Source: Sedimenticola selenatireducens DSM 17993 (lineage in GTDB: Bacteria; Pseudomonadota; Gammaproteobacteria; Chromatiales; Chromatiaceae). From it: a stretch of 64,000 nucleotides of DNA. Made by a program: the position numbers and the translations under genes. Below are positions 5,753-48,629 of this stretch, in pieces (position 1 is the first letter of the stretch; every line of letters starts with the position of its first letter). The notes beneath the pieces are model-generated. The model had not been told where the DNA came from. It made no database searches and was given only the letters and a program-made list of their open reading frames with translations. The DNA lies in NCBI RefSeq assembly GCF_000428045.1, contig NZ_ATZE01000012.1, positions 1 through 64,000 on the forward strand, read 5' to 3'.

Positions 5753-6799
5753 TCATTTGGGCAAAGCCACACGCAGCCCGGGCTGGCCACACTCCACCTC
5801 CTCCAGCACCTCCGGGTAGTAACACATGTAGCCCGAGTGGCACAGCTCGGGCCGAGCCCGTACATTCGAGGCATAGTCATAAACGGCCTGCGCCGTTGCA
5901 CCGGAAGTCACCCTGTCACGCACCGATCGCACCAGCTGAATACTCTTCAGCTTGCGTTCCAGCGGCGCCTCCCGCCCGGCGATCTTGATCGCCGTCACCC
6001 CATCCCTGGCCAGCCGGGAGATGGCGCAGAGACCACAGGGACCGAAGGTGTAGCCCTGTTCAGAGGTCGAAAAACCGCAACTGAATTTGTACCAGGTCCA
6101 CTCCTTGTAATCGGCCTCGTTCTGCAACAGCGCCTGCTGTATTGCCTTGTCTATACGCTGTCCGTCGGCGCGGTAAAAACTGTACTGATAGGCATCCATG
6201 CAGATCGGACCGCCATACTGTTGCGGCAGGTGGATGGTGTGACAGACCCCCTCCTCGTAAATGCAGCCGTCGTTGAGGATGAACGTCTCGAACTCCATGT
6301 CCGGCAGGGAGGCGGCAACATCCCGGATCTCATCCAGCTTGAGATAGCGTGGAAAGATGACCCGGTCGACCCCCAGCTCGCCGAAAAAGCGGGCCGACTC
6401 ACTGTTGCGGCAGGCGGCGATGGAGCTCAGGTGAATCCGGATACCCAGATCCAGCTCCACCACCGCCATCAGCAGAGCGGGATCGGCCAGGATCAGGGCA
6501 TCCCCCCCCTCGCCGGCAAAGCGTCGCGCCAGCTCGATCAGGCACTGCATCTGCGGCTCGGTGTAGTGCTGGGCGTTCAGGGTCAGCATGGACTGTTTCC
6601 CGGCCGCATGGGCGGTAGCGATGATCCACTGCATCTCGGCATACTCTCTGATGTTGCCGAACAGCCGACGGCTTACCGTGGAGATGCCGAACTGCCGGGT
6701 CCACTCCTGCGGCACCATACCGAAGAACACCTCATCGGCACCCGCCTCCAGAACCGGCTCCAACTCTTCTGCCTTGCTAATCGGCGCAACGATTTTCAT
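5753..6799 (-). CDS. U32-family protein (UbiU-like cysteine pattern), last gene of the qhp operon
   Basis: A 348-residue member of the U32 'peptidase' family, which includes the iron-sulfur hydroxylases UbiU, RlhA and TrhP. The N-terminus (MKIVAPISKAEELEPVLEAG, ADEVFFG) and GGDALILADPALL followed by SSIAACRNSESARFF are the U32 TIM-barrel strands. Cysteines C179, C186, C200 and C241 (x6, x13, x40 spacing) resemble the four UbiU [4Fe-4S] ligands, and C255/C258 are additional. It lacks the QASATN-type motif of true UbiU as remembered, so it is a divergent paralogue. The ATG at 6799 overlaps the upstream gene by 23 nt. Function is inferred: with its partner it may hydroxylate the QhpC tryptophan without O2, or act in ubiquinone synthesis. 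Confidence 0.8.
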   Translation of the reverse strand: MKIVAPISKAEELEPVLEAGADEVFFGMVPQEWTRQFGISTVSRRLFGNIREYAEMQWIIATAHAAGKQSMLTLNAQHYTEPQMQCLIELARRFAGEGGDALILADPALLMAVVELDLGIRIHLSSIAACRNSESARFFGELGVDRVIFPRYLKLDEIRDVAASLPDMEFETFILNDGCIYEEGVCHTIHLPQQYGGPICMDAYQYSFYRADGQRIDKAIQQALLQNEADYKEWTWYKFSCGFSTSEQGYTFGPCGLCAISRLARDGVTAIKIAGREAPLERKLKSIQLVRSVRDRVTSGATAQAVYDYASNVRARPELCHSGYMCYYPEVLEEVECGQPGLRVALPK

Positions 6800-7700
6800 T
6801 CCAGTCTCCCGCCAGTACCAATCGATTGACCCAACCCTGTTGCAGTGCCTCTGCCAACACCCGTTGTTGCTCTTCCCCATGGCGATAGAAGATGGTATTG
6901 CCACGCAGGAAGCTGGGCAGTTCATGGGGACTCTGGCAACCGGTCCGTTGCATGCGGCTGAAATAGACCAGACACTCCTTCTGACAACTGTGTCCAGGCA
7001 TGAACTTTTGCTGCTTGTCCAGCGACAGCGAGCCCGGTTTGCAGATACGCCCCTTGAGGGTGTAGCCATAAGGAAGGTGCACGGAGAGCCGCAAGCCGTT
7101 GGGTTGCAGGTCGGCCGGCTCGGCAAAGGGACGGATATCTGTTTCCGCCGACTCGATTCCGAAGCGCCGCATCAGTTTCGGATAGAGCGACGACTGCATC
7201 CCCGGCGGTATCGCACTGGCCCACTCCGCCGAGGGCAGGCGCGGATCCTTGATCATCTTGCCCATCTGCCGTCCCGCTACCGGACACAGCCGGGGGAATT
7301 GCTCCCTCAGCAGTCGCAACACACCCCAATCGTTGACCACCACCTCGCTCTGTTCAGGCAGCCGCTCCAACAACCGGGGCAACAGGTCGATTCCCCGATC
7401 AGCCAGCATCGGCGTCAACAGGGTGACACCGAGACCCTGCTCGACGCTCCAATCCACTACCCGTTCAAGCTGGGGACGGTGCGGCAACAGACGTTCACAA
7501 AATTCATTACCGAAATGAATCCGGTCAAGCGCACGGTCGGCCAGCTTTTCGGGCAGCACAGTCTCGCGCCAACCCAGAGCCGCCATGCAGTCACGCGCCG
7601 TGAGCGGCATGGAAAGACCGGACAGACGTTCCAGTAGCGCAGCATCACAAAGCGTAAAGGCCAGCTCTGGCTCGGACACAGCGGCATTCACCAACGACAT
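6777..7700 (-). CDS. Divergent U32-family protein (UbiV-like cysteine pattern), partner of the downstream U32 gene
   Basis: A 307-residue protein. The segment around IHFGNEFCER (C68) and the block VVVNDWGVLRLL...LCPVAGRQMGKMIKDPRLP match the layout of UbiV-type U32 proteins, where the first Fe-S cysteine sits in a similar FG-x-x-x-C motif. Three further cysteines, C220 (KGRICKPG), C239 and C243 (HSCQKEC, a C-x3-C pair), complete a UbiV-like set. The N-terminal ~55 residues look unlike UbiV. The start has a strong GAGGAG ribosome site. It lies 80 nt after qhpE and overlaps the next U32 gene, so the two probably form a heterodimer like UbiU/UbiV. Association with QHNDH maturation is inferred from the operon and from the missing qhpG. 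Confidence 0.72.
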   Translation of the reverse strand: MSLVNAAVSEPELAFTLCDAALLERLSGLSMPLTARDCMAALGWRETVLPEKLADRALDRIHFGNEFCERLLPHRPQLERVVDWSVEQGLGVTLLTPMLADRGIDLLPRLLERLPEQSEVVVNDWGVLRLLREQFPRLCPVAGRQMGKMIKDPRLPSAEWASAIPPGMQSSLYPKLMRRFGIESAETDIRPFAEPADLQPNGLRLSVHLPYGYTLKGRICKPGSLSLDKQQKFMPGHSCQKECLVYFSRMQRTGCQSPHELPSFLRGNTIFYRHGEEQQRVLAEALQQGWVNRLVLAGDWNENRCAD

Positions 7701-7780
7701 GTCAATCTCCTCTCACCTTATTCGGTCGACCCGACATACAACCGCTTCGGTCTTGTGATACGAAAAACCCGGACATAGCA

Positions 7781-8455
7781 TCATCCTGTCCGCCGCTCGG
7801 CACCGAAATAGCAGGCATTTTCGCGCAGATAACGTCGGATCGAATCGACATCCGCCGCTCTGCCGGTCGCGAGGTAGGCCGCGATATGCCCGCTCAGATA
7901 GCCGGTACCGATACTGGCCCCGGCGACCCGACTGTCCGAACTGCGGACAAATGCACCGAAGTCGGCGTAGCGCGTCTCCAGACAGGACCACTCGGTCTCC
8001 TTACAGCGTGCGTCACCTGTCATGCGCAGTACACCGGAATAGGCGGCGGGAAACACCGGATCACCGCGCGCCGGGGTGGCGGCACAGAGCGGTATTCCCG
8101 CTGCTGCCGCTGCCGCACAGGCCGCCTGCAAAACCGGCCGGTCAGCCCGCAGGCCGAGACTGAGATTGATCAGATCCACCTGCTGCTCCAGCAACCAATG
8201 GATAGCCGCCGCGACCTGGGATGGTGTGGTGGTAAAGCGCTCGGTAAACACCTGGGCCACCGCCAGTCGGGCGGCCGGGGCTGTCGTGGTGATGGCGCGG
8301 ATTACGGCTGTTCCGTGCTGAACGCAGTCGTACTGCGTCTCACGCTGCACCAGCATTTCGGAATCAACCACGAAGGCCGCGGCACAATCAACAGTCTGCG
8401 CCTGATCACGGCTGAAGCCGCTGTCCACCACACCCACCGTGACCACCCTATTCAT
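7781..8455 (-). CDS. qhpE: Subtilisin-like maturation protease QhpE
   Basis: A 224-residue serine protease of the S8 family. In the QHNDH pathway QhpE removes the ~28-residue leader of the gamma subunit QhpC after QhpD has cross-linked it. Catalytic residues are visible as D11 (VGVVDSG), H47 (CVQHGTAV) and S181 (AGASIGTGYLSGH). INLSLG near residue 96 matches the subtilase core. No signal peptide is present, in keeping with a cytoplasmic role. The ATG at 8455 overlaps the end of qhpF by 8 nt, and the longer frame start (8485) would add a non-subtilase leader. Confidence 0.86.
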   Translation of the reverse strand: MNRVVTVGVVDSGFSRDQAQTVDCAAAFVVDSEMLVQRETQYDCVQHGTAVIRAITTTAPAARLAVAQVFTERFTTTPSQVAAAIHWLLEQQVDLINLSLGLRADRPVLQAACAAAAAAGIPLCAATPARGDPVFPAAYSGVLRMTGDARCKETEWSCLETRYADFGAFVRSSDSRVAGASIGTGYLSGHIAAYLATGRAADVDSIRRYLRENACYFGAERRTG

Positions 8456-10178
8456 AGGCCATCTCCGGCCGGGGCAACACCTCAATCACCCCGTCATCCA
8501 GTTTTAGTACTATCGATGTCGCATCGGACAGCGCGGGACGATGACTAATCAGTATCCGGGTACGATCGGCAAACAGCTCATCCACCGCTGCAATGATCTC
8601 TGTCTCCGTCTCCTGGTCGACGGCTGAGGTTGCCTCATCCAACACCAGTACCAACGGGTCCTGCAACAGGGCGCGGGCGATCGCCACCCGCTGCTTCTGC
8701 CCGCCGGACAGCTGCACGCCCCTTTCACCAACCTGACTGGAGATACCCTCCGGCAGGCGCTCGATCAGCTCTCCCAGCCGGGCACGCATGGCGGCGGCCA
8801 GTATCGCGTTCTCATCCGCCTGCGGCGCTGCGTAACGCAGATTCTCAAACAGACTGCCGCGAAACAGCACAATATCCTGACTCACCACCGCCACCCGTTG
8901 GCGGATCGCTTGCGGATCACAGTCACGCAGATCAACACCATCCAGCAGGATGCGTCCCGACTGCGGATCATAGTGACGCTGCAACAGGTCAATCAGGGTC
9001 GACTTGCCGACGCCGGAACGCCCGGTCAGAAGCACCTTGCTGCCGGCAGGAATAGCGATATTCAACCCCTGCAACACCTGCTGGGTACGCCCGGGATACG
9101 CGAAGGAGACTGCGTCAAACACAATATCCCCGCCTGTTTTCCGCAATGGACACGGTGTATCGGGCGGCGTCACACTTGCCGGGCTGAAACGCAACTCTGC
9201 CACGCGACCCAGGCTCACAGAAACCCGCTGGATCGACACATAAAGTCCCAACAGGCTCTGCACCGGACCAATGGCCATACCCAGATAGGTGGAGAAGGCA
9301 ATCAACGCACCCAGTTGCCAATGCCCGTCAATCACCCAGAACCCGCCGACAACAAAGGCGCCCGCCCGGGACAGGGATGTCAACATACCGGGGACGGCAC
9401 GGGTAAAGAACTCGGTCATCTGCAGCTTGATCAGATCCCCCAGATAGTGGTCGCCAAGTCCGCCCAGGCGCCTGGCCTCACGCGCCTCCTGGCCAACCGA
9501 CTGGATGAACTTCATCGCCGGCAGGGTCTCCACCAGGAAAGAGGAGAGATCGGCCGAGCGCTCCCGCAGGGTCCGGGTTCGCTGCTCCAGCTTACGCCGC
9601 ATCCAGCGCATCCACAGCACTTCGATGGGGATCAACAACGCTACAATCAGCGACAACTGCCAGGAGAGCATCAACATCAACACCACCGCCCCAATCAGGC
9701 CCAGAATGCTGGAGATGGCGGCAAACAGGGAGTCAACGGCAAAGCGCTGGATCTCGGCCACATCCCCGTCCAGACGGGAGAGGATATCTCCGGTCCGGCG
9801 CTCACCGTAAAACGTGGGCGACAGGGTCTGCAGATGCCGGTAGAGATCTTCGCGCAACCGGAACAGGATGCGTCCCGACAGGAGGGTATGCAGATAGCGA
9901 TTCAGGCCCGACAGCGCCATGCCCAGGATCCCGATCAGAATCATCACAAGCGCTACATTGACCAGCAGATCCCGATCACCGGCCAGCAATCCGTCGTCAA
10001 TCAATACCTTGGTCAACCAGGGCTGCAACAGCACCTGAGCAGTGGCCAGCAGTGAAAGCAGCAGCAGCACCAACATGCGATACCGCATGGGCCAGACAAA
10101 GCCGTACACCCAGCCCAAAGCGGCTCGTGCGGCCGCTTGTGTGTTCGGCTCGCTGGAGCGAATCAGCCGATCGAACAT
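8448..10178 (-). CDS. qhpF: ABC exporter QhpF (fused membrane and ATPase domains)
   Basis: A 576-residue half-transporter with an N-terminal six-helix ABC membrane domain (MLVLLLLSLLATAQVLLQ onward) and a C-terminal ATPase. The ATPase carries Walker A GRSGVGKST, signature LSGGQKQRVAIARALL, Walker B LVLVLDEATSA and the H-loop ISHRP. In qhp clusters this protein is thought to move the cross-linked gamma subunit to the periplasm. No peptidase C39 domain is present, which fits a separate protease (QhpE). A hairpin at 10245-10267 separates it from the structural genes, and it overlaps qhpE downstream. Generic lipid-A/drug exporters look similar, so the assignment rests on context. Confidence 0.85.
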   Translation of the reverse strand: MFDRLIRSSEPNTQAAARAALGWVYGFVWPMRYRMLVLLLLSLLATAQVLLQPWLTKVLIDDGLLAGDRDLLVNVALVMILIGILGMALSGLNRYLHTLLSGRILFRLREDLYRHLQTLSPTFYGERRTGDILSRLDGDVAEIQRFAVDSLFAAISSILGLIGAVVLMLMLSWQLSLIVALLIPIEVLWMRWMRRKLEQRTRTLRERSADLSSFLVETLPAMKFIQSVGQEAREARRLGGLGDHYLGDLIKLQMTEFFTRAVPGMLTSLSRAGAFVVGGFWVIDGHWQLGALIAFSTYLGMAIGPVQSLLGLYVSIQRVSVSLGRVAELRFSPASVTPPDTPCPLRKTGGDIVFDAVSFAYPGRTQQVLQGLNIAIPAGSKVLLTGRSGVGKSTLIDLLQRHYDPQSGRILLDGVDLRDCDPQAIRQRVAVVSQDIVLFRGSLFENLRYAAPQADENAILAAAMRARLGELIERLPEGISSQVGERGVQLSGGQKQRVAIARALLQDPLVLVLDEATSAVDQETETEIIAAVDELFADRTRILISHRPALSDATSIVLKLDDGVIEVLPRPEMAYE

Positions 10179-10289: not shown

Positions 10290-11435
10290 CTATTCCTGCA
10301 ATCTCACCAGACGCATATCCGCGGTAGACATATCACCCGGCAGTTGAATGCTGCCAATTTTCTTCAGCGTCTCGGGGTCATGCACCGAGATATCGCTGGA
10401 GGTTCCTCCGACATAGAGAGTGCTGCCATCCGATGTCATGTTGATGGTGTAATAGGTGTGATCCATATCCGTTACGGCCAGGGTTTTCTTCTCCTTGATG
10501 TTGTGCTTGGAGAGCGTATTGAAGGCACCATAGATGATATTGGAATCGTGCGGATCGGATACCCAGCTGAATACAATGAACTGAAAGGGGACCGTCTCCA
10601 TTTGCTCCACCGCACCGGACTTCAGGTCGACCCGGCTCATGCCCCACCACCAGTCCGCAGTCTCAAAGTTCATACTGTCATCCTTAAACTCTGCGGTGAC
10701 ATAGGCCATGATGTATTCACCCACATGCTCACCCTGGGAAGAGACAGCGAAGGCATCCGGCGTAAGCCAGCGCGCACCCCGTTCCCAGTTCTGCAGTTTA
10801 CTGATGACACGCACCGTTCCGGTCCGCGGATCAATCGCCTTGAGATCGGCGCCTCCCAAAACCACCTCACCGTTATCCATGGTGGCAATCTTGGTGATGC
10901 GACGATCTACCGGCCAGCTGCGGCTTTGTTGCACATCAAGCCCCGCCGTCGTATCGAACACGGCAAGCTGCGGTTGCATGACCTCATAACGGTCATCCAG
11001 CTCACGCACCGGATTCTGTACGGTATAGAGCTCCTTGCCATCGGGACTGACGGCCAATGAGAAGAACGTCTTCACAATCACGTCACTACTTGACTGCTTG
11101 GCGGAAAAGACCATCTTGCAGTCGGTAATATCAAAGCCGTATATGTCTTCCCACTTGTTGGACAACACATAGGCGATACGGCCATCCGGCGACATGGCGA
11201 TTGAGCCCGCACCGAAATAGCCGGGGACATCGCAGGAGCGGGTGATGCTGTTGGTTTGGGTGTCGATTACCTGCAGCTGATTCGGCCGGGTCACCGTCAA
11301 CAGATACTCATGGGGCGCCGTGGTGGCGGCCTGTTTCACGTTGCCATGACAACCCGACAGGATTACGCCCACTCCGGCAAGTGCCAGCAATGCCCGTACA
11401 GCTCTTTTTTTGGTTTTCATCAAACTCATCTCCAT
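10290..11435 (-). CDS. qhpB: Quinohemoprotein amine dehydrogenase beta subunit (QhpB)
   Basis: A 381-residue seven-bladed beta-propeller subunit that packs against the gamma subunit and forms the active-site entrance. Repeated blade signatures include SIAMSPDGRIAYVLS, SLAVSPDGKELYTV and INMTSDGSTLYVGG. The N-terminus (MKTKKRAVRALLALAGVGVILSGC) is a secretion signal ending in an LSGC lipobox, so this homologue may be a lipoprotein held at the membrane. Several close starts exist (11438 GTG, 11435, 11429 and 11420 ATG). The ATG at 11435 overlaps the qhpC stop as TGATG and implies translational coupling; 11420 gives the most compact signal peptide. Confidence 0.92.
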   Translation of the reverse strand: MEMSLMKTKKRAVRALLALAGVGVILSGCHGNVKQAATTAPHEYLLTVTRPNQLQVIDTQTNSITRSCDVPGYFGAGSIAMSPDGRIAYVLSNKWEDIYGFDITDCKMVFSAKQSSSDVIVKTFFSLAVSPDGKELYTVQNPVRELDDRYEVMQPQLAVFDTTAGLDVQQSRSWPVDRRITKIATMDNGEVVLGGADLKAIDPRTGTVRVISKLQNWERGARWLTPDAFAVSSQGEHVGEYIMAYVTAEFKDDSMNFETADWWWGMSRVDLKSGAVEQMETVPFQFIVFSWVSDPHDSNIIYGAFNTLSKHNIKEKKTLAVTDMDHTYYTINMTSDGSTLYVGGTSSDISVHDPETLKKIGSIQLPGDMSTADMRLVRLQE

Positions 11436-11758
11436 CACTCATCTTCCGGGAAGATGCCATCCAGCTTACGCCAGTCAACATTTGCCTTATCTATCCCCTT
11501 GGACCAATCCGGATAGGTGCTCATGGTGTCCGGTACCTGGGCAGGCCACCAGCAGGCGTCCGCGCAGCCATACAGATCCGACTCCATTGGCGCGCAGAGT
11601 GAAGCGAGACCGCCGAACGGATCCACTTCCCAGCCCGGATCGGTGGTCGCGGTACAACCGACAACCGTCTGCATGGCCATCACCTCTTCAACTTCTTCCC
11701 GACTGACTGCCTCTTCCACTGTTTTGGCTTTTTTATTTATAGACTTCAGATGTTTCAT
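11435..11758 (-). CDS. qhpC: Quinohemoprotein amine dehydrogenase gamma subunit, CTQ precursor (QhpC)
   Basis: A 107-residue precursor with a ~28-residue leader ([18 protein letters not shown] onward), then the core [15 protein letters not shown]...[20 protein letters not shown]. In mature Pseudomonas putida numbering the residues fall exactly at the known cross-link sites: C7-E16, C27-D33 and C41-D49 thioethers, and C37-W43, which become the cysteine tryptophylquinone. QhpD forms the cross-links, hydroxylation of the Trp completes CTQ, and QhpE removes the leader. AGGAGG precedes the ATG at 11758. A longer frame to 11848 overlaps qhpD and is not conserved. It starts 1 nt from the qhpD stop and its stop overlaps the qhpB start. 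Confidence 0.96.
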
Positions 11759-11759
11759 T

Positions 11760-13193
11760 TCAGAAACTCCTCCTGGGTAATACGTGATTCTCGAAAAAAC
11801 CGGGATTTTCGAGCATGAGCCGTGAATAGACCTGCACACCAAAATCAATCCAGTCTCGCATCAGGTCGCAATAATGGTAGGTCGGTACGGCTGGATCACC
11901 GGTTTTTGCATAACTTTCGTGATAGCAGCCACCGGAACAGAAATTGCGGATGCGACAGGTCTCACACCCTGTGTCAGTGCGATCCAGGCGCTGTTCCACA
12001 AAACTGGCCAGGCGGGGCTTGTCGATACCCGTCCGAACCGTACCAAACTTCGGCAGCGCGGAACCGGTAAAGCGATGACAGAGATTCAGTCCCCCTTCCG
12101 TGTCCACCGCCAGTAGTGCTACGCCCGCCCCACAGGGCAGCTGTTTTTTATTACCTTCATGCAGATCGGTCATCAGTTGGTGCATATTGCCAAAGCCGAG
12201 ACTGCGATTCTCCAGCGCCTGCTCAAGATAGCGCTGCCCGAGGCGCTTCATGCCCTCAAACACCTGCTGCAGCTCATCCGGTCGAAGATTGAATGCCGCA
12301 ATATCACCGGAGGTCACCGGACCAAAACCGACTTCATGGAATCCCAGGTCGTGGTGGAGGTGGTCAAAAATGGCCGCCACATCGATGACTCCGTGAGTAA
12401 GTGTTACCCGGCAGCCGACCGGACGTGACATACCGGCCTCCAACAACATTTTCACCTTTTCACTGACAAGGTCATAAGTGCCATGTCCACCGACCGTCAG
12501 CCGGTTCCGGTCATGCAGGCTGCGCGGTCCATCCATGGAAACCGTGAGTCCGAACCGGTGTTGCTTGAACCAGTCAATCAAATCGGGCGTCAGCAAGGTG
12601 GCATTGGTGGTCAGGGTGAAATCTGGCTTGGCCCCCAGCTCTGCAAAGCGGCTTTCACAATAGGCCACCACCTTGCGGATCAGTGGCATATGGGTCAGTG
12701 GTTCGCCGCCAAAGAAGACGATGTTGTACTTCGCCTGCCTCGGTGACTCCCGCAACAGCATCTCGATCGACTCGAGGGCTGTTTCATAGGACATCTTCTG
12801 CCCATCGGACGGAGTCGCCAGATCCTCCTTGTAACAATAGGTGCAGCTCAGATTACAGCCGGTATTGACATTCAGCACCAGAGTCGTAAGCGGAAAGTTC
12901 TTTACGCTGACCGGCGGCAGATTCAACCTCGCCGCTTTACCGTCATCGCAAAGTATTTCCAAGGACTTCAGGTCGTCAATCGTCTCGCTCAGATCGGCCT
13001 GGTGAAAATGCGTGCTCAGCCGTTGGTCGATCAATTGCCTGCTGACCGTTCCATGCTCATCAAACAGATCCAGCAGGGCACCACTCAACTCGTCGAGTTC
13101 AAACAGGCTGCTGGTTGGTATATGGAACAGCATGTCATGCCGTTCCACCGCCATCCGATGCAGGTTGGGTCTGACCAGTGTCAGGTTATCCAT
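11760..13193 (-). CDS. qhpD: Radical SAM/SPASM peptide cross-linking enzyme QhpD
   Basis: A 477-residue enzyme that installs the Cys-to-Asp/Glu thioether bonds in QhpC. Residues ~1-90 form a peptide-recognition-like domain. The radical SAM cluster motif CNLSCTYC is at C113, C117 and C120, followed by FFGGEPL. The C-terminal SPASM region has [22 protein letters not shown] and [20 protein letters not shown], which ligate auxiliary [4Fe-4S] clusters. The start has GAGGTG upstream. It lies 51 nt after qhpA and touches qhpC. Other SPASM maturases (AnSME) are similar, but position next to qhpC fixes the assignment. Confidence 0.95.
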
Positions 13194-13244: not shown

Positions 13245-14852
13245 CTAAAGCACCGAGGCCCGGACAAAATGCTGCACCGTCACCAGCAGATGGCCTTCGC
13301 CACTCACCTTGTTACCGGCATCATCAACCGTACCAACCACGTTCAGGTTGCCCACGTTATTGGTGGACATCTTGCGTTCCGGATTGGGTCCGGCATCACC
13401 TGGGACAAACACACCGTTTGCATCGATAGCACCAGCATATTTGAGGTCGTTGTCTTCCTTGGCCGTCTCATCAAAAGGTTTCAGAGACCAGGTGGCCGGC
13501 ATATAACCCAGCCGGACATCGTCTTCGGTGCCGGGCTTGCCATCGGCACCGGCAGCATAACCTACCGCCCGATAGGCCGATTTCGCCTTGGCAATCGGCG
13601 TGCCGTTGCCGCCGACTCTGGCAACCGACTCGCCGGGCACAACATCAACCCGCGCCACCTTGTCATACACCGCAAGTGCGGCAGGAGCCTGAGCCTTACC
13701 GACGGCAACGTCACGCAGACCCACCGCGGCGTCCTTTTCCGCCTCCACCAGCAAACGAATACGGTTCGCTCCGGCAGACAGCGTCTTGACTATCCGCAGG
13801 CCTTTGCCCAACGCCGGCGTACCTTTCAGCCCAACACCGACAATAGTGATCTCCTGCCTTGCTCCCTGTCGAATATGCGAGGGCATTACGCCGGTCACCG
13901 CATGGTCCCCTTTGGCCGCCCGCTGCGCCACCATGGCCGCACCCAGTTCATTCGCCTCCGCCATGAACAGACGCCCCTGCATCCGCGTTCCCTGTTCATT
14001 GGCCGCCAGGATCTGGCGCATCTTGATACCATCCAGCGTCAGCGACGCACGCCATTCGTAGCCTGTATAGGTAATCGCCTGCCCACTACCCGTGAGCGGC
14101 GTGCCATCGGCGTACTGCCCGATGACTTGCAGACCATACAAGTCTCCGCCTTTGGCGCGGACCTGCATCAGCGCGTCAAAATCACCCTTTCCGGGTATGT
14201 ATCCGGTGATTGCCCAGTCATGTTCGAAGGTCGGCTTATCCGCCGCCTGCCACGATTTCCAGGCTGCCGATTCAAATGGATAATCCTGTGCCAGCTTCGG
14301 AACGACTTGATTCATGGCAAGATCGAACCAGGGGCGGTCACGCGCCAAAGAATGCAGTTCCAGCGTGGGAATCTGTCCCATGTGGAATTGAACCAGTAGC
14401 GACCACTCCTCTTCGGTACGGCGCTGCAGGCCAAAACGGGCGCCGGAGTGACAGCGGGCGCACATCTCGGCATAGGCGGGATCGTTGTTTTCCAGCAGGT
14501 TGCCGTCACGCTCCAGTCCATAGCGCAGGGCTGTGGTCTCTGATGGCGCCAGCCCTTGGGTATCGGAAAGGAATTTGTGTACCTGTTTTCGTTCATCCGC
14601 CGACATTTTAGCTTCATGAATGCTGACCATTCGCTGTATGGTCATCTGCCACCCTTCGGGGGTTTTGCGCTGTTCACTGATCCTGGAGTAAGGCAGACTC
14701 GGGTTGCCGGTTTCACTATGGCAATCCATGCAGCGCTTCTGGATTATCTGTTCGCCACTCATAGGCTGTGAAGCGGCGTAGAGCACGCTGTTCCCAGCAA
14801 GGGCAAGAAACCCACCGATCAGAAGTGCGCTTTTTTTGCTGATCTGTTTCAA
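13245..14852 (-). CDS. qhpA: Quinohemoprotein amine dehydrogenase alpha subunit, diheme cytochrome c (QhpA)
   Basis: A 535-residue periplasmic subunit that takes electrons from CTQ and passes them to c-type cytochromes or azurin. A Sec signal peptide (KKSALLIGGFLALAGNSVLYAA) is followed by two heme c sites, CMDCH (C41, C44, H45) and CARCH (C131, C134, H135). The remaining ~370 residues are the beta-barrel/Ig-like domains of the family. The best start is TTG at 14852, preceded by AAGGAG at optimal distance; no ATG fits the frame there. It is the first gene of the qhp operon, facing away from the response regulator across a ~400-nt regulatory region. Confidence 0.95.
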   Translation of the reverse strand: MKQISKKSALLIGGFLALAGNSVLYAASQPMSGEQIIQKRCMDCHSETGNPSLPYSRISEQRKTPEGWQMTIQRMVSIHEAKMSADERKQVHKFLSDTQGLAPSETTALRYGLERDGNLLENNDPAYAEMCARCHSGARFGLQRRTEEEWSLLVQFHMGQIPTLELHSLARDRPWFDLAMNQVVPKLAQDYPFESAAWKSWQAADKPTFEHDWAITGYIPGKGDFDALMQVRAKGGDLYGLQVIGQYADGTPLTGSGQAITYTGYEWRASLTLDGIKMRQILAANEQGTRMQGRLFMAEANELGAAMVAQRAAKGDHAVTGVMPSHIRQGARQEITIVGVGLKGTPALGKGLRIVKTLSAGANRIRLLVEAEKDAAVGLRDVAVGKAQAPAALAVYDKVARVDVVPGESVARVGGNGTPIAKAKSAYRAVGYAAGADGKPGTEDDVRLGYMPATWSLKPFDETAKEDNDLKYAGAIDANGVFVPGDAGPNPERKMSTNNVGNLNVVGTVDDAGNKVSGEGHLLVTVQHFVRASVL

Positions 14853-15248: not shown

Positions 15249-15974
15249 ATGCAGACTGATCGCAAACAGACCACCATACTGATCGTTGAGGATGACGCCG
15301 CTTCACGCGCGCTGCTGGTCAGTTATTTCTCCAGTGAAGGCTACCATGTACTGGAGACGGAACAGGCCGAAGATTTGGTGCGCCGTGTAAAGGACGAACA
15401 GATCGACCTGGTTTTGCTGGATATCAATCTTCCGGGAAAGGATGGCCTGACCGTTACCCGGGAGCTCCGCGCGGAGTCGAAAGTCGGCATTATACTGGTT
15501 ACCAGCAAAGGCGATGAGATCGACCGGATTGTCGGCCTGGAACTGGGGGCCGATGACTATGTCACCAAACCATTCAATCCCCGGGAACTGTTGGTGCGGG
15601 CCAAAAATCTGCTCTGGCGTGTACATGACAGTCAACAGTTGAAAATGCATCATGCCGATCCCGACGTGCTCCATTTTGAGGGATGGCAACTCGACTGCAG
15701 TAGAAGACTGCTATCGGCGCCGGACAGGACATCGGAACGCTTGCCGGAGGGTGAATTCAAGTTGTTGCAAACGCTGGTTTCCCGGCCCGGGGTCGTCCTC
15801 TCCAGGGACCAGCTACTGGATGCGATCCGTGATCGGGAATGGACACCCAACGACCGCTCTGTTGATGTCTTGATCGGCCGGTTACGGCGCAAACTGAAAG
15901 ACAATCCAGCCAAACCCGCCTTTATCCTCACGGCACATGGCGCGGGTTACGTGTTTGCGGGAAAACCGGACTGA
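15249..15974 (+). CDS. OmpR/PhoB-family response regulator
   Basis: A 241-residue two-component regulator. The receiver domain (residues ~8-125) has the acidic pocket ED at 14-15, phospho-acceptor D58 in VLLDINLPGKDG, the Thr/Ser switch in LVTSKG and the conserved Lys in DDYVTKPF. The C-terminal winged helix carries RDQLLDAI, RSVDVLIGRLRRKL and GAGYVF, the usual OmpR-family DNA-binding signature. The closest flavour is TorR/ArcA-like. It begins 396 nt from the divergent qhpA and is followed after 4 nt by the giant kinase gene, its likely partner. It probably controls qhp and the porin/ALDH genes; qhp clusters elsewhere use an AraC-type regulator (QhpR), so this would be a different control scheme. 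Confidence 0.93.
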   Translation: MQTDRKQTTILIVEDDAASRALLVSYFSSEGYHVLETEQAEDLVRRVKDEQIDLVLLDINLPGKDGLTVTRELRAESKVGIILVTSKGDEIDRIVGLELGADDYVTKPFNPRELLVRAKNLLWRVHDSQQLKMHHADPDVLHFEGWQLDCSRRLLSAPDRTSERLPEGEFKLLQTLVSRPGVVLSRDQLLDAIRDREWTPNDRSVDVLIGRLRRKLKDNPAKPAFILTAHGAGYVFAGKPD

Positions 15975-15978
15975 GCCC

Positions 15979-18900
15979 ATGTTGCGGCTGGGCGGATATC
16001 ATGGCCTGACTCTACTCCATGAAGGGAGCAAATCGGTCATTATCCGTGCCAAACGGGATGCGGATAATCTGCCCGTGATTATCAAACAGGTGAGCCGTAC
16101 CACGCCGATCAATGACAGCATCAGCCGCCTGCGGCACGAGTACTATCTGCTGCGTGATCTGAATATTCCGGGAGTCATTCGGCCGCTCTCCCACCAACAG
16201 AACGAACAGCTACTGTTTACCGTCTTCCACGATCAGGGCGGCGACCGGCTGCGACACTTTATACGTAACGAAACCGGCAACTGGCAGTCACTGCTTCCGT
16301 TGATGCATCAGTTAAGTGAACTGGTTGGCCGGATTCACGAAGCCGGTATCACACATAAGCAGATCACGCCCGACAATATCATTATCAATCACCGCACCAA
16401 GCAGGTGGAGATTATTGATTTTACTCTGGCAACCAAACTCGATAGCGAAGAGGCACAACCAGAGACCACTCAGATCCAGCTCGATGCCCTGCCCTATATG
16501 GCGCCCGAACAATCCGGAAGAATCAACCGGCGTATCGATTTCAGAACCGATTTCTACAGTCTTGGTATCATATTCTACGAACTGCTGGCCGGTCACCCAC
16601 CATTCATCGCGCAGGACAAGCTTGAACTGATTCATAGTCACATAGCCAGGCATCCACCTCCCCTGCATCAGATCAGACACGACATACCCCAAGCCCTTTC
16701 GGCGATCGTACTCAAACTACTGGCCAAGGATGCTGCGCAGCGTTATCAGTCCACCTTTGGCCTGACCGCTGACCTCAGCGAGTGCATGCGGCAACAACAG
16801 GCGACGGGGGGCATCGAACCCTTTGCTATTGCGCACCAGGATCGTCCTGAGCGATTTCTTATCCCGCAGCGTCTTTATGGTCGGGAGCACACCATTGGCA
16901 AACTGTTGGGCTGGTATGAGCAGACAATGCAGGGCAAGCCACAGACGGTATTGATTTCCGGCTACTCGGGTATCGGTAAATCCACCCTGGTGAATGAAAT
17001 ACGCGAACAGGTTATCGAACAGAAGGGCATTTTCATCAGCGGGAAATTTGACCAGTTCCGCCGCAGCCGGCCATACTCGGGAATCATTTTTGCCCTGCAG
17101 TCGCTCATCAAACAACGACTTACAGAGCCGGAACAACAGATCGATCTCTGGCGCTCCCGATTACAGGCTGCTCTGGGCGATAACGCCTTTCTGCTGATTC
17201 GCCTGATTCCAGAGCTGGAACTAATAATCGGCAAAGCTGTTGAAGCCCAGCGGCTCACACCACACCAGGCACAGAACCTGGTATCACGCATGTTTATCCG
17301 TCTGCTGGAGGTCTTCAGTGCCCATGACCGGGCACTGGTACTGTTCCTGGATGATCTCCAGTGGGCCGACATGGCCTCTTTCAATCTGATCAACAGCCTT
17401 ACAAGAAGCAGCACACTCTCCAATCTGATGTTGGTTGCCAGTTTCCGGGAACAGGAGATAGGACCGACACATCCAATCCGCCTGCTGATCGACAACGCAA
17501 AAGGCTGCCTGAACCAGATCAAGCTCGAACCACTCAGCCAGGAGCAAATTTCTCATCTGCTTGCCGACACGCTGCACCGCAAGCCCGATGAGACCCGCTC
17601 ACTCGCCTACCTCTGTCTGCACAAAACCCAGGGTAATCCTTTTTTCCTGAAGCAGTTCCTCGGCTCACTGCATAACCAGAAACTGATCTTTTTCAGACAG
17701 GGAAAATGGCATTGGGATGAACAAGGCATCCAGAGCCAGGAGATGGCTGATGATGTCATTACTCTACTGGTCACCCGTATAGAGAGTCTGCCACAGGACA
17801 CCCAACAGGTTTTAAAACTGGCGGCCTGTATCGGCAACCGATTCAATCTTAAAACCCTCTCCGTTGTCTATGATCATGATTACGAATCAACCACCCAGGC
17901 ACTATGGCCTAGCCTCTCCGATGGCCTGTTGATTCCACTGGATGAGCAGTACCAGATGGCCGAGGCGAATGCCCAGGGGCTGACCTGGTACCGATTTGTT
18001 CATGACAGGGTGCAACAGGCGGCCTACTCATTGGTGTTGCCTGGACAGAGAAAAACCCTGCACCTGCAGATTGGCCAACTATTGAGGCGAAGCACCCCCG
18101 AGAATGAGCTGGATGAGCATATTTTCGAGATCGCCAATCATCTCAATATGGCCAAAGAGATAATATCGCAGCCGGATCAACGCATCCTGCTGGCGGAACT
18201 GAACCTCCGGGCCGGCCTCAAAGCCCGGCAATCGGCTGCCTGTGAGGGTTCGGCTGAATACTTCCAGCATGGCCTGGAACTGTTGCCGGAAGATTGTTGG
18301 TCAAGCCATTACCGGACCAGCCTTGCTATCCATACCGCGGCGGCCGAGAGCGCGTTTGGCCGCTCCGATTTTGTTCGGATGGAAAGCCTGATTGAACAGA
18401 TCCTGTCTCATGCACATACGCTGCAGGATCAACTGAAGATCCATGAATTGAGAATTCAGGCGGAAACCGCCTGTAACCGGTTTGATCAGGCCCTCAAGAT
18501 TGCACTGGAAGTATTGTCCCTGCTCGGCATTCAACTGCCGGAATCACCCGGCAGGCTACGAATTTACCTGACGTTAGCAAAAACACAATGGCAACTCGGG
18601 AAATACTCGGAAACCCAACTTCTCGAAGCACCGGAAATCAGCAACCCCCAAATCAAGGCCGCCCTGCCCATTTTAACCAGCATGTTCGGCATCGTGAAGT
18701 TTTCCAGCTCATCATTACGTCCGCTGGTTATGGCAAAACAGGTTGAGTTGACCTTAAAGCACGGACTGATGCCCTGTGCCGCACAATCATTTGCGGGATA
18801 CGGCGGTATGCTGTGCGGCTATTACGGCGAGATAGATAAAGGTTATGCACTGGGCCAACTGGCGCTGAAACTGGACCAGCAACTTCCTTCCAAGACATCT

Positions 18901-21900
18901 CATCATAAAACGCTGTTCTTACACTACACCTATGTCGCGCACTGGAAACAGCCACTTACCGAAACTCTGGAGCCACTCCTGCAAGGCCATCACCTGGCGC
19001 TGGATTGTGGTGATGTGGAATGGGGTGCGTACGCCCTGGCGACCTACATCCAGTACTATTTCTTCCTTGCCCCCAGACTGGATATCCTGAAACAGACACT
19101 GACCGAGTACCTGCACCAAATCCGGCTGACCAGACAAAAGCAGTCGGAAGAGTACTCGCTCTTCACACTACAGACCATTGATAATCTGCTCGGTAACTGC
19201 AAACCCGCCAGCCGCCTTGAGGGTGAATACTATCGCGAATCGGAGATGCTGCAGCAACATAAGGCCAATAATCACAAGACCGCCATCTGTCTGCATTACT
19301 TCTACAAAGCGATACTGCACTATCTGTTTGCCGAATATACTGAGGCCGCCTCCGTATGCCGCAAAGGTCTGGGGTATCTCAGCAATATCAGCGGCACCTA
19401 CACCGCGCCCTACTTTCTCTATCTCTCTGCACTCACCGAGATTGCCCTGTTGACCGAACAACCGTTGCCCGGCAGATTAACCAGTCGACACAAAATCAGG
19501 GGCATCCTGAAACAGCTTGAACGACTCGCCGGTTTCTCTCCTCAGAACCACAAACATCACGTTCTATTGATCAAGGCGGAACTCTGCCGCATCACCGGGA
19601 AGCGAGCACTGGCAATGGCCTACTATGAAAATGCCATCACCAGCGCCGAAAAAACCGCGTTCATCCTGGACAGGGCCCTCTGTAACGAACTTACCGGTCG
19701 GTTCTATATCGAATGGGGAAAACCGACGTTGGCAACAGCCAACTTGCAAGCAGCCTGGAATATCTACATGGCCTGGGGCGCGGCCAGTAAATGTGACCAG
19801 ATGATCCGGTACTACAACCACAATTTTGCCGAACAGTCAGACCTGATTACGGCAGTCCAGGCGGACTACGCACAGGAGCAACAGACGAGGGAATTCAGCA
19901 ATCAGAATCTGGATATCACCTCGGTGCTGAAAGCCGCCCATACCATAGCGGATGAGATTGTACTTGAGCGTATACTGGATCGGCTGATTACACTGGCCAT
20001 GGAGAGCGCCGGTGCCCAGCGCAGCGTGCTGATGCTTAACCGGGGAGGCGAAATGATCGTTGCCGCCGACACCGATATGGACGGCCAACAAAGGACCAGA
20101 GCCGGCACTCCGGTGTCCGGGGCAGGAACCGATTTACCGCTTGCGCTGGTCCACTATGTCTCACGCACCCAACGCAGTGTAGTGATCGACTCCACTGCCG
20201 AAGACCAACTTTTTCTCCAGGACAACTACCTGAGACACAAACCACCCTGTTCCATACTCTGCCTGCCAATCTTGTACCATGGAGAGCTTACCGCCGTTCT
20301 CTATCTCGAGAACAGCGAAGCCAGGGGCGTATTCACACCAGAGCGCGTTGAGACCCTGAAAGTACTGGCCGCCCAAGCTGCCATCTCCATCGAGACGGCC
20401 AAGCTTTATCGCAGCCTGGAGCAATCCGAGCGGGAATATCGCTCACTGGTTGAAAACGCCATAGAAGGGATCTTCCGAATTTCTCCACGGGGTGAAATCA
20501 TCTCCGTCAATCCGGCACTCATTACACTGTTAGGCTACGACCCCCAGAAGACCTCCATTAATGCCATAAGCGATATCAGCAGCCAATGTTTCTGCGACAG
20601 CGGCCATCTACACAGTATCCTGACCCTACTGGAAACAGAGCCGCGCGTCACAGACTTTGAGACCTTGTGGAGGCAAAAAAATGGCAATCGGATTCATGTC
20701 TCCATTTCCGCCAGAAAGGTAGTGGATGATCAGCACAATCTGATCTATTACGAGGGTACGGTTGCCGATATCAGCGCCCGCAAGGCCCGGGAACAGGCCG
20801 AGCAGGACCGATTCAAGGCAGAAATAGCCAGACAAAAGGCGGAAGCGGAGACAGTGGCAAAATCCCAGTTTCTCGCCACCATGAGTCACGAGATTCGCAC
20901 TCCCATGAATGGCGTACTCGGGATGGCGCAGCTGCTGTTAAGAGGCGAACTGACCGACAGGCAGCGTAGCCAGGTCGAGGCGATCTACCATTCCGGCCAG
21001 TCCCTGCTCGACATCCTCAACAGCGTACTCGATTTCAGTAAGCTGGAGGCGGGAAAAATGGAGTTTTCCAGCACACCGCTTTCACTCAGAAATGCGCTGA
21101 CCGACCTGGCTGGCCTGCTACGTCCACTAGCTGATGAAAAAGGATTAACACTGGAAATTGATCTGGCCAAAGACTTGCCGGAACAGGTCATGGGTGACGC
21201 CCAGGCACTGCACCAGATCCTGCTCAACCTCTGTTCGAATGCGATCAAATTCACTTCACACGGCACTGTAAGAATAGGCGCGAAACCGATTCAGTTCAGC
21301 GGTGACGATCTGTGGGTTCGCTTTGAAGTGGAAGATAGCGGCATCGGCATCCCCCCGCAGGCCAGCGACAGGATATTCCAGCACTTCAGCCAGGCCGACT
21401 CCTCGATCACCCGTCATTATGGCGGTACCGGGCTGGGACTGGCGATCTGCAAAAAACTTGTGGAACAGTTGGGCGGTGAAATCGGTTATACCTCCAATCC
21501 CGGCGAGGGCGCACTGTTCTGGTTTCAGCTGAACTATCCGCTGCAGACAGACCGCACACCACAACCGCTACCTACCGGCACCATAATGCTCTCGGCAAAG
21601 CGCATATTGCTGGTAGAAGATACACCGATCAACCAGGATGTCACCGTCGGCCTGCTGGCGCAGGATCATCACCAGGTTGATGTTGCCGCAGATGGCTATC
21701 GTGCCATCGAACTGCTTTTAGAAAACACCTACGACCTGATCCTGATGGATATCCATCTGCCCAGGATGGACGGCATGCAGACCACCCGGCAAATTCGCCG
21801 TCTGCCTGATCAAACCAAAGCCTCCATTCCGATTATTGCACTGACCGCATCGGTCACCGATGAGGAGGTCGCCCGCTATTACCAGTCAGGCATGAACGAT

Positions 21901-22368
21901 GTCATCGGCAAACCCCTCCTGTATTCCACTCTCAGGGAGACCATGGAGAGGACGCTTGGAGACGGGCATTCGGCATCCGACAAACCGGTAACTCCTGTGC
22001 CATCGGCAAATATCGAGCTGTTGAACCAGACCCTGCTGTCTGAGCACATCAATCATCTGGGACACCACCAGTTCAAACAACTGATGCAAAAATACTATGA
22101 TCAGGCGGACGAACTGCTGATGAAACTGGAGCAAGCGATTGCCGGCTCCAACCGCAACGAGGCCGGCAAACTGGCACACAAGCTGATCGGGGCCAGCGGT
22201 AATTTCGGTCTGACTGGGGTACGCCATGCATTGTCACGCCTGGAGGCCGATATCCACTCAGCACCGCTCAGCGCACTGGTCCTGCATACAGACCAGACTC
22301 GACAGCTCTATTTGCAAAGCCGGGAACTGCTGGAGCAGCAGCTCGCCGCAATGATCATTGAAGCGTGA
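15979..22368 (+). CDS. Giant hybrid sensor: Ser/Thr-kinase-like, AAA, GAF, PAS, HisKA, HATPase, REC and HPt
   Basis: A ~2129-residue cytoplasmic signalling protein. In order: a Ser/Thr kinase-like domain (~1-265), an AAA_16 ATPase (Walker A SGYSGIGKST, Walker B LVLFLDDLQWAD), a long helical TPR-like region (~600-1290), a GAF domain, a PAS domain (REYRSLVENAIEGIFRIS), histidine kinase HisKA (phospho-His in MSHEIRTPMNG), HATPase_c (DSGIGI, GGTGLGLAI), a receiver (LILMDIHLPRMDG) and a C-terminal HPt (KLAHKLIGASGNFGL). The kinase-like domain reads HKQITPDN and DFT where HxD and DFG are expected, so it may be catalytically dead. The ATG 4 nt after the regulator stop is the likely start. The signal sensed is unknown; amines or redox state are possible. 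Confidence 0.92.
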   Translation: MLRLGGYHGLTLLHEGSKSVIIRAKRDADNLPVIIKQVSRTTPINDSISRLRHEYYLLRDLNIPGVIRPLSHQQNEQLLFTVFHDQGGDRLRHFIRNETGNWQSLLPLMHQLSELVGRIHEAGITHKQITPDNIIINHRTKQVEIIDFTLATKLDSEEAQPETTQIQLDALPYMAPEQSGRINRRIDFRTDFYSLGIIFYELLAGHPPFIAQDKLELIHSHIARHPPPLHQIRHDIPQALSAIVLKLLAKDAAQRYQSTFGLTADLSECMRQQQATGGIEPFAIAHQDRPERFLIPQRLYGREHTIGKLLGWYEQTMQGKPQTVLISGYSGIGKSTLVNEIREQVIEQKGIFISGKFDQFRRSRPYSGIIFALQSLIKQRLTEPEQQIDLWRSRLQAALGDNAFLLIRLIPELELIIGKAVEAQRLTPHQAQNLVSRMFIRLLEVFSAHDRALVLFLDDLQWADMASFNLINSLTRSSTLSNLMLVASFREQEIGPTHPIRLLIDNAKGCLNQIKLEPLSQEQISHLLADTLHRKPDETRSLAYLCLHKTQGNPFFLKQFLGSLHNQKLIFFRQGKWHWDEQGIQSQEMADDVITLLVTRIESLPQDTQQVLKLAACIGNRFNLKTLSVVYDHDYESTTQALWPSLSDGLLIPLDEQYQMAEANAQGLTWYRFVHDRVQQAAYSLVLPGQRKTLHLQIGQLLRRSTPENELDEHIFEIANHLNMAKEIISQPDQRILLAELNLRAGLKARQSAACEGSAEYFQHGLELLPEDCWSSHYRTSLAIHTAAAESAFGRSDFVRMESLIEQILSHAHTLQDQLKIHELRIQAETACNRFDQALKIALEVLSLLGIQLPESPGRLRIYLTLAKTQWQLGKYSETQLLEAPEISNPQIKAALPILTSMFGIVKFSSSSLRPLVMAKQVELTLKHGLMPCAAQSFAGYGGMLCGYYGEIDKGYALGQLALKLDQQLPSKTSHHKTLFLHYTYVAHWKQPLTETLEPLLQGHHLALDCGDVEWGAYALATYIQYYFFLAPRLDILKQTLTEYLHQIRLTRQKQSEEYSLFTLQTIDNLLGNCKPASRLEGEYYRESEMLQQHKANNHKTAICLHYFYKAILHYLFAEYTEAASVCRKGLGYLSNISGTYTAPYFLYLSALTEIALLTEQPLPGRLTSRHKIRGILKQLERLAGFSPQNHKHHVLLIKAELCRITGKRALAMAYYENAITSAEKTAFILDRALCNELTGRFYIEWGKPTLATANLQAAWNIYMAWGAASKCDQMIRYYNHNFAEQSDLITAVQADYAQEQQTREFSNQNLDITSVLKAAHTIADEIVLERILDRLITLAMESAGAQRSVLMLNRGGEMIVAADTDMDGQQRTRAGTPVSGAGTDLPLALVHYVSRTQRSVVIDSTAEDQLFLQDNYLRHKPPCSILCLPILYHGELTAVLYLENSEARGVFTPERVETLKVLAAQAAISIETAKLYRSLEQSEREYRSLVENAIEGIFRISPRGEIISVNPALITLLGYDPQKTSINAISDISSQCFCDSGHLHSILTLLETEPRVTDFETLWRQKNGNRIHVSISARKVVDDQHNLIYYEGTVADISARKAREQAEQDRFKAEIARQKAEAETVAKSQFLATMSHEIRTPMNGVLGMAQLLLRGELTDRQRSQVEAIYHSGQSLLDILNSVLDFSKLEAGKMEFSSTPLSLRNALTDLAGLLRPLADEKGLTLEIDLAKDLPEQVMGDAQALHQILLNLCSNAIKFTSHGTVRIGAKPIQFSGDDLWVRFEVEDSGIGIPPQASDRIFQHFSQADSSITRHYGGTGLGLAICKKLVEQLGGEIGYTSNPGEGALFWFQLNYPLQTDRTPQPLPTGTIMLSAKRILLVEDTPINQDVTVGLLAQDHHQVDVAADGYRAIELLLENTYDLILMDIHLPRMDGMQTTRQIRRLPDQTKASIPIIALTASVTDEEVARYYQSGMNDVIGKPLLYSTLRETMERTLGDGHSASDKPVTPVPSANIELLNQTLLSEHINHLGHHQFKQLMQKYYDQADELLMKLEQAIAGSNRNEAGKLAHKLIGASGNFGLTGVRHALSRLEADIHSAPLSALVLHTDQTRQLYLQSRELLEQQLAAMIIEA

Positions 22369-30854: not shown

Positions 30855-31201
30855 GAGCTACCCACACTTCCGCGTTCGCGCAGTAGGTTTGCCGGTCTCA
30901 TATTACTGTTGCCTCCCCTGCTGTTGAGCATGCCGAGCAGAGGGTATCGATAAATCCCACTAGATTGAAAACAAGCCATTTTTTATATTTAATATCAATG
31001 GCTTAATAGATAATCTATGTAGTAATACCATGCTCAGAAATAGTTGTGCTGGTAGTGCTTATAATAACGGCTAGTTCGCTGTTGCTGAAAAAGTAAATCT
31101 GTCCCGTTTTCCTCTCACCTTCCTTGTTAAGGCCGGACTCAGGAGCGAGACCCCGCCCTGCCGCAGGTAGCGGCGAATATCGTAGAGGCAGGAGACGCCG
31201 A
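30855..31201. other. Intergenic spacer before the antiviral island
   Basis: No supported gene is seen in these 347 nt. The central ~120 nt are AT-rich, and the final part contains AGGAGA, the ribosome site for the OLD-family nuclease gene. This is the first sequence clearly inside the accessory region, but no tRNA, integrase or terminal repeat marks a boundary. Confidence 0.5.
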
Positions 31202-41880: not shown

Positions 41881-41936
41881 CACAACATCCTTTACTGAGT
41901 ATCTCTTCTCGAATGAAGTAACATTCGCGTTCTCGA

Positions 41937-43994: not shown

Positions 43995-44521
43995 GTCTTC
44001 TCCACAAGCATTCTCGCGACCTCCTCAGCGTCGCCACCACCAAGAAACGCCGCCAACACGTCCGCGGAAACGTCCTTCAATCTGGAGCGAAGTCTGTCCT
44101 CAAAATCCGTATCCGAGAGTATCGGCTGAGCCTTCACGGCGGTGAGGGGTAGCAAGGCGCGTTCAACATCGTCTTGCGTGCGCACGCCGACGCGAGCGAT
44201 CTTTCGGGTTAGTGTAAAGTTCTCCTCGATTCGCTCTACTTCACGCTGCTCGGATTGAGCCCCTTCCTCTGCGAGAAACACCGAATAGACATTCCACGCC
44301 TTGGCCCCCGCTGCGCGCAGCGCGGCACTATGCCGAGAAAGTACGGTGCGTTGCGCAGACTCCCAGCTTGCAAGAAGATCCTCCGCCGATGAGAAGACGT
44401 GAACGAAACCGATGATAGCAGCGTTCTCGAAGCATGTTACTGCGGGTGGCTCACCGGTCCATGGCCACGTTTCGTACCCAGATTCTCTGAGGAGGATTTC
44501 GGTTTGTGTCGCGATATCCAT
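43991..44521 (-). CDS. Small middle component of a SIR2/ABC ATPase trio
   Basis: A 176-residue cytoplasmic protein beginning MDIATQTEILLRESGYETWPW, followed by an alpha/beta core (AAIIGFVHVFSSAEDLLASWES) and a helical segment VERIEENFTLTRKIARVGVRTQDDVERALLPL. No enzymatic motif is visible. ATG 44521 overlaps the last base of the SIR2 stop; a longer frame to 44563 would overlap SIR2 by 43 nt. Position between an effector gene and a Rad50-like ATPase fits the 'middle component' of ABC-three-component systems; family membership is inferred from context. Confidence 0.6.
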   Translation of the reverse strand: MDIATQTEILLRESGYETWPWTGEPPAVTCFENAAIIGFVHVFSSAEDLLASWESAQRTVLSRHSAALRAAGAKAWNVYSVFLAEEGAQSEQREVERIEENFTLTRKIARVGVRTQDDVERALLPLTAVKAQPILSDTDFEDRLRSRLKDVSADVLAAFLGGGDAEEVARMLVEKT

Positions 44522-45840: not shown

Positions 45841-45850
45841 AGTGGTTCCC

Positions 45851-48619: not shown

Positions 48620-48629
48620 ACGGATATCC

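Follow-up and report, generated by a model that had tools for sequence, protein, structure and literature searches.

To our knowledge, every described route to a tryptophylquinone cofactor uses O2. For the quinohemoprotein amine dehydrogenase, the parts of the report drawn on here describe QhpG as an FAD- and O2-dependent monooxygenase that alone performs both hydroxylations where studied; a Paracoccus qhpG mutant yields quinone-less QhpC, and a labelled-water experiment with Paracoccus QhpG indicated that both oxygen atoms derive from O2 (PMC7876137). In ubiquinone synthesis, UbiU and UbiV associate as a heterodimer, each binding a 4Fe-4S cluster, and serve in hydroxylation that needs no O2, as described in the part of the source used here (PMC6747719). 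The sections consulted of a review characterize U32 enzymes as O2-independent hydroxylases, with prephenate as the oxygen source in ubiquinone synthesis, and state that direct evidence for U32 chemistry is lacking (PMC11574389).

The DNA analysed here, hereafter designated the window, is a stretch of 64,000 nucleotides from Sedimenticola selenatireducens DSM 17993, in which a qhp operon is followed by genes for two U32-type proteins, hereafter designated V and U. The open-access literature yielded no report linking U32 proteins to QhpG, quinohemoprotein amine dehydrogenase or CTQ, most subscription journals lying outside this coverage.

Results

Organization of the qhp operon

Eight genes lie on the minus strand of the window in the order qhpA-D-C-B-F-E, then V and U, as listed below.

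13248-14852, minus strand: qhpA, quinohemoprotein amine dehydrogenase alpha subunit (TIGR03908, 622 bits, cut-off 274; PF09098, PF14930, PF09099 and PF09100)
11763-13193, minus strand: qhpD, radical SAM thioether cross-linking maturase (TIGR03906, 705 bits, cut-off 453)
11438-11758, minus strand: qhpC, gamma subunit precursor with an intact CTQ motif region (NF037958, 169 bits, cut-off 50)
10293-11438, minus strand: qhpB, beta subunit (TIGR03907, 329 bits, cut-off 223)
8451-10178, minus strand: qhpF, ABC transporter (PF00664 and PF00005)
7784-8455, minus strand: qhpE, subtilisin-like protease (NF049966, 288 bits, cut-off 165)
7701-7780, minus strand: gap of 80 bases between qhpE and V, the site of qhpG in Sedimenticola hydrogenitrophicus
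6780-7700, minus strand: V, UbiV-like U32 protein of 307 aa with C68, C220, C239 and C243
5756-6799, minus strand: U, UbiU-like U32 protein of 348 aa with C179, C186, C200 and C241 (PF01136)

The qhpA, B, C, D and E genes form one operon and all score above the curated NCBIfam cut-offs, and homologues of qhpF precede qhpE at many of the loci compared. The coding regions of V and U overlap by 20 bases, or by 23 when the stop codon of V is counted. Gene calls and family models agree with an earlier note on this DNA, which had read six qhp genes followed by two overlapping U32-like genes on the same strand, and the cysteine positions it gave for V and U were correct when the residues were checked.

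Comparison of the window with S. hydrogenitrophicus gave dN/dS values of 0.13 for qhpA, 0.09 for qhpD, 0.06 for qhpC, 0.10 for qhpB, 0.15 for qhpF and 0.17 for qhpE, together with 0.13 for V and 0.11 for U. All eight genes, V and U included, are thus under purifying selection between the two Sedimenticola species.

Divergently upstream of qhpA (15249-22365, plus strand) are encoded a response regulator and a 2143-aa multidomain protein with Ser/Thr kinase, AAA, GAF, PAS, histidine kinase, receiver and Hpt domains. Homologues of the two occur in 40 and 45, respectively, of the 79 loci examined, and they likely regulate this type of qhp operon. The window also contains a Gabija defence pair, GajA-GajB (31124-34782, plus strand; PADLOC, 1083 and 887 bits), and, on the minus strand (35157-51689), a type III methyltransferase (1399 bits) with a ResIII-type protein, beside which lie a UvrD-type helicase, an SMC/LmuB-like ATPase and a 1559-aa protein matching neither Pfam nor PADLOC; the latter region is possibly an unnamed defence module.

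Assignment of V and U to the U32 family

U matched the Pfam U32 model (PF01136) with 121.7 bits (cut-off 22.4), and no Pfam or NCBIfam model was matched by V at 0.001. A phmmer search of PDB sequences gave nothing at 0.1 for either protein, and neither matched any of the flavoprotein families in Pfam and NCBIfam, the match taken here as the mark of an FAD monooxygenase. Single-chain models were of moderate quality (pLDDT 77.6 for V and 72.4 for U), their cysteine-bearing stretches being poorly predicted. With the V model, a moderate one giving a moderate match, the first-ranked Foldseek hit in PDB was the U32 structure 5d88 (E 3.6e-5, TM 0.44/0.53), and the top fold match of U was likewise 5d88. 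Alignment by hhalign showed clear kinship of U with UbiU (E 1.6e-25) and a weak match of V to UbiV (P 0.0013, probability 18.5%), in which the four cysteines of V fall on C39, C180, C193 and C197 of UbiV, as numbered in the part of the source used (PMC6747719). The placement of V in the U32 family therefore follows from the fold match to 5d88, the weak UbiV profile match with four aligned cysteines, and the tree described below.

The four cluster-type cysteines are invariant in all 16 aligned V sequences, an alignment that leaves out the V of locus L192 with its ambiguous reading frame, and in all 17 aligned U sequences. Five more cysteines of U (130, 255, 258, 320 and 326) are invariant in the same 17 sequences and missing from the six UbiU compared. 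Two nearly invariant motifs of U, of the GPCGLC type at residues 253-258 and CxxGxMCYYP at residues 320-329, are also absent from these six UbiU; as sequence motifs they suggest a further metal site, and a second cluster bound by the extra cysteines would be a guess.

A plasmid search with V returned a single match, a Roseburia record (L206:7449-10134), in which a distant V-like protein adjoins a U32 protein beside heavy-metal transport genes, with no annotated qhp gene in the 16.7 kb read. It is a further U32 system of two genes, here from an anaerobe. In a tree of 53 U32 proteins, which has long branches and unsure exact joins, V stands beside UbiV (99/94), with the 16 V sequences together (94/83) and the Roseburia V outside those; U forms a long branch of its own (100/100), the Roseburia U included, on the side of UbiU, TrhP and RlhA. 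Neither U nor V falls within the separate groups made up by the six UbiU (96/95) and the six UbiV (99/97). Moreover, U scored 83.1 bits with the UbiU equivalog NF047963, below the cut-off of 440, and the S. selenatireducens genome also carries canonical UbiU/UbiV and TrhP. That the pair is simply an ordinary UbiU/UbiV is excluded by the tree, the model score and the canonical proteins elsewhere in the same genome. The difference from ordinary UbiU/UbiV claimed in the earlier note is thus borne out by a tree that puts V and U outside both canonical groups.

QhpG in the genome and in the nearest relative

S. hydrogenitrophicus (locus L005), the nearest relative, with a QhpD 89% identical to that of the window, has the same gene order plus qhpG (L005:15374-16735) between qhpE and V, that is, E-G-V-U; hence, either qhpG was lost from the window species or this species never acquired it. 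The 80-base gap was searched for a remnant of qhpG, and none was detected: local alignments to the ends of the S. hydrogenitrophicus qhpG scored at most slightly better than shuffled sequences (shuffles scoring as high, 1474 of 2000 for the 3' end and 125 of 2000 for the 5' end).

The earlier note saw no flavin monooxygenase gene in the window, and no QhpG was found in searches of the whole genome. With the QhpG of the relative as the query, the best match (E 0.0035) covered residues 5-49 only, all 12 candidates being scored, and a 17-sequence QhpG profile found nothing at 1e-5 among the 32 of 38 candidates scored. The same profile detects the solved QhpG structure 7ctq, a peptidyl tryptophan dihydroxylase, at 1e-170, and a remote QhpG of the same phylum but another class at 2.5e-79. 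The genome is scored as 100% complete with 2.5% contamination. Of the findings that the earlier note named as refuting its idea, two were looked for, a qhpG elsewhere in the genome and a place of the pair inside canonical UbiU/UbiV, and neither was seen.

QhpC was found at 26 of the 28 loci given, and all 26 sequences keep the four cysteines and the CWWPAQVPD motif, those of clusters with V and without QhpG included. Because the CTQ motif of QhpC is intact and the Paracoccus qhpG mutant is quinone-less, genomes lacking QhpG need another hydroxylase, and the V-U pair is proposed for this role as the only qhp-linked candidate seen.

Distribution of V and QhpG

Genomes were drawn evenly from the class (369) and the phylum (398), the two draws partly overlapping. 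V and QhpC were found in the same two genomes of the class draw, S. selenatireducens and G332; in the phylum draw, QhpC was found in seven genomes and V in one, again S. selenatireducens. V was found in none of the genomes lacking QhpC (0/367 and 0/391), absences being uncertain in large genomes, as the V searches scored at most six candidates per genome and the QhpG profile up to 32. Among the eight QhpC genomes of both draws, the two without QhpG have V, and the searches gave no V for the six that have QhpG (Fisher P 0.036), one of the former two being the genome in which the pattern was first noticed. In five of the six QhpG-containing genomes, the 34 to 60 kb around the qhp genes held qhpA-F and qhpG, and no V or U in tblastn searches with 33 V and U sequences; the sixth, G795, matches G480 in place and size and was taken as G480, for which all 16 candidates were scored and V was not found. 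A family-wide QhpD survey added no close comparison, S. selenatireducens alone of 96 genomes lying above the cut-off.

A larger set consisted of the 75 loci, out of 505 QhpD-like stretches, whose QhpD is most like that of the window, a selection biased by this likeness. The genomes of 50 of these loci were tested together with G000 and G332 (52 genomes in all); the 25 loci left out comprise 11 further qhp clusters of the listed genomes and 14 from other genomes, all with qhpG in the locus. V was found in 14 of the 52 genomes and QhpG in 43, giving 6 with V only, 8 with both, 3 with neither and 35 with QhpG only. QhpG was thus not found in 6/14 genomes with V, compared with 3/38 without V (Fisher P 0.008). 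When the QhpC genomes of the phylum draw were added (G795 as G480), the counts became 6, 8, 3 and 40 of 57 genomes (P 0.004, or 0.012 without S. selenatireducens); all these tests count genomes as independent, and the genomes are related.

The six genomes with V and without QhpG are S. selenatireducens, G332, Motiliproteus sp. SC1-56, a gammaproteobacterial MAG (L044) and two Thauera MAGs (L053 and L059); on the QhpD tree they require at least 5 label changes, that is, they occupy about five places. Neither V nor QhpG was found in G486, G496 and G501 (a Neptuniibacter MAG, a Marinobacterium MAG and a Thauera phenylacetica draft), which are drafts or MAGs whose absences may reflect missing sequence, as may those in the MAGs L044, L053 and L059. 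The qhp contig of the Thauera phenylacetica draft ends in qhpA, and V is present in the relatives closest to it by QhpD.

Strict mutual exclusion of QhpG and the pair, as the earlier note had expected, is contradicted by the 8 of 14 V-containing genomes that have both, S. hydrogenitrophicus among them, and only a statistical tendency is left. The idea in that note that the U32 pair replaces QhpG agrees with the six genomes that have V and lack QhpG and fails for the eight that keep it. For the latter, action alongside QhpG, as that of UbiU/UbiV beside the O2-dependent ubiquinone hydroxylases, would fit by analogy. Replacement of QhpG in some genomes and coexistence with it in others is our leading hypothesis.

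Arrangement of the pair in other genomes

V and U are adjacent and in the order V-U at every place read. They directly follow qhpE in the window, in Motiliproteus sp. SC1-56 and in Motiliproteus MSK22-1, the last having one qhp cluster ending E-V-U and another with qhpG. In Thauera of the L191-L194 kind, the pair lies beside qhpF-qhpE or upstream of qhpA, and in Thauera sp. 28 and Sel9 it lies downstream of a qhpG-containing cluster, a second pair being present beside a second cluster in Sel9. In G503, a piece of qhpF is about 1.4 kb from one pair and the other pair is at a contig end; in G506, the pair is on a 7.2 kb contig without a qhp gene. The pair of G332 is outside the operon, about 31 kb from qhpC; a NarK-type transporter gene is 0.7 kb away from it, and narG, H, J and I are at distances of 8-15 kb, narG, H and I scoring above the model cut-offs and narJ, like the two transporters, below. 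In some Thauera (L055:17301-20060 and L196:1973-4192), a cytochrome c assembly domain (PF01578) is encoded in the frame that overlaps U or comes after it, and in Thauera L191 (L191:10593-12011) an aldehyde dehydrogenase adjoins V.

Discussion

Taken together, V and U are, fairly probably, an O2-independent hydroxylase pair for the QhpC tryptophan, an alternative to QhpG in some genomes and the sole route in others. In favour of this proposal are the place of the pair in the operon, the confinement of V to QhpC genomes in the draws, the commoner absence of QhpG in genomes with V, the scatter of such QhpG-less genomes over the QhpD tree, the CTQ motif kept by QhpC, the purifying selection on V and U, the NarK/nar link in G332 and the known chemistry of UbiU-UbiV. 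Against it are the presence of QhpG in 8 of 14 V-containing genomes, the three qhp genomes with neither, the weak sequence kinship of V with UbiV, the position of the G332 pair outside the operon, and the Roseburia pair of V- and U-like proteins, which joins the V and U branches and has no annotated qhp gene in the stretch read. We also count against it that CTQ requires two hydroxylations of one indole and that we know of no U32 enzyme acting on a protein.

Alternatively, the pair may serve some other O2-independent hydroxylation or oxidation during anaerobic growth on amines, for example of degradation products or on the haem/cytochrome side, with another enzyme hydroxylating the QhpC tryptophan in genomes lacking QhpG. 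The eight genomes with both QhpG and V accord with such a role, as do the Thauera pairs whose neighbour is an aldehyde dehydrogenase or a protein for cytochrome c assembly and the distant Roseburia plasmid pair that is not next to qhp genes. We regard it as unlikely, however, because V was not found in the QhpC-less genomes of the draws and the commoner absence of QhpG with V is left unexplained. Less likely still is that the pair acts on QhpC in a partial or different maturation step, for instance by adding the first hydroxyl group, by feeding electrons to QhpD or by withdrawing electrons to give the quinone, and that QhpG or autocatalysis completes the process; this would account for the coexistence with QhpG in 8 of 14 genomes, but not readily for the six genomes that have V without QhpG, and QhpG alone carries out both hydroxylations where studied, according to the part of the report cited (PMC7876137). 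It is highly improbable that the window operon is decaying after the loss of qhpG, with no CTQ made and V and U incidental, since all eight genes are open with dN/dS values of 0.06-0.17 and genomes with V but no QhpG turn up in about five parts of the QhpD tree, although the qhpG at the same place in S. hydrogenitrophicus makes a recent loss possible and a very recent one would leave little time for decay.

Returning to the proposed hydroxylation of QhpC, we envisage V-U as a dedicated U32 pair. The two proteins would probably form a heterodimer, each with an iron-sulfur cluster, and would hydroxylate the tryptophan of QhpC that becomes part of CTQ, using no O2 and acting either during or after the thioether cross-linking by QhpD. 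It would thereby do the job done elsewhere by the O2-dependent flavoprotein QhpG. In S. selenatireducens, whose genome apparently lacks QhpG, V-U would be the sole route, and where QhpG is present as well, V-U would take over when oxygen is lacking. Prephenate may be the donor of the oxygen atom, by analogy with UbiU/UbiV, TrhP and RlhA. A fuller version, to which we give an even chance, holds that V-U is the first U32 hydroxylase acting on a protein, performing both hydroxylations of the QhpC tryptophan without O2 and binding a further cluster through cysteines of U, which would allow CTQ enzymes to be assembled under denitrifying conditions; it is less probable because it needs more steps than the best explanation.

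Thauera and Sedimenticola are denitrifiers. An O2-free route, if true, would explain how a CTQ amine dehydrogenase can serve denitrifiers in anoxia and would add proteins to the lipids and RNA on which U32 hydroxylases act. It would also make the U32 chemistry, so far poorly understood, accessible through a substrate that is soluble and amenable to genetics. The proposal makes a precise prediction that mass spectrometry can test.

Comparison with known systems

V-U resembles UbiU-UbiV in consisting of two adjacent U32-type genes, in having four conserved cysteines per protein at matching places (for U, by order and spacing), and in the presence of an O2-dependent flavoprotein counterpart for the same kind of step, UbiI/H/F there and QhpG here. 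The spacing is CX6CX13CX40C in U and CX6CX16CX38C in UbiU, and CXnCX18CX3C in V and CXnCX12CX3C in UbiV, the patterns of UbiU and UbiV being those in the part of the source used (PMC6747719). The gene order differs, however, being V-U here and U-V for UbiU/UbiV, and U has five extra invariant cysteines. With QhpG, the V-U pair shares the linkage to qhp genes and, as proposed, the step and substrate; QhpG is an FAD/O2 monooxygenase in the portion of the report cited (PMC7876137), whereas V and U match no flavoprotein family. TrhP and RlhA, likewise of the U32 family and O2-independent hydroxylases, differ in acting on RNA, as stated in the sections of the review consulted (PMC11574389), and branch apart from V and U in the tree.
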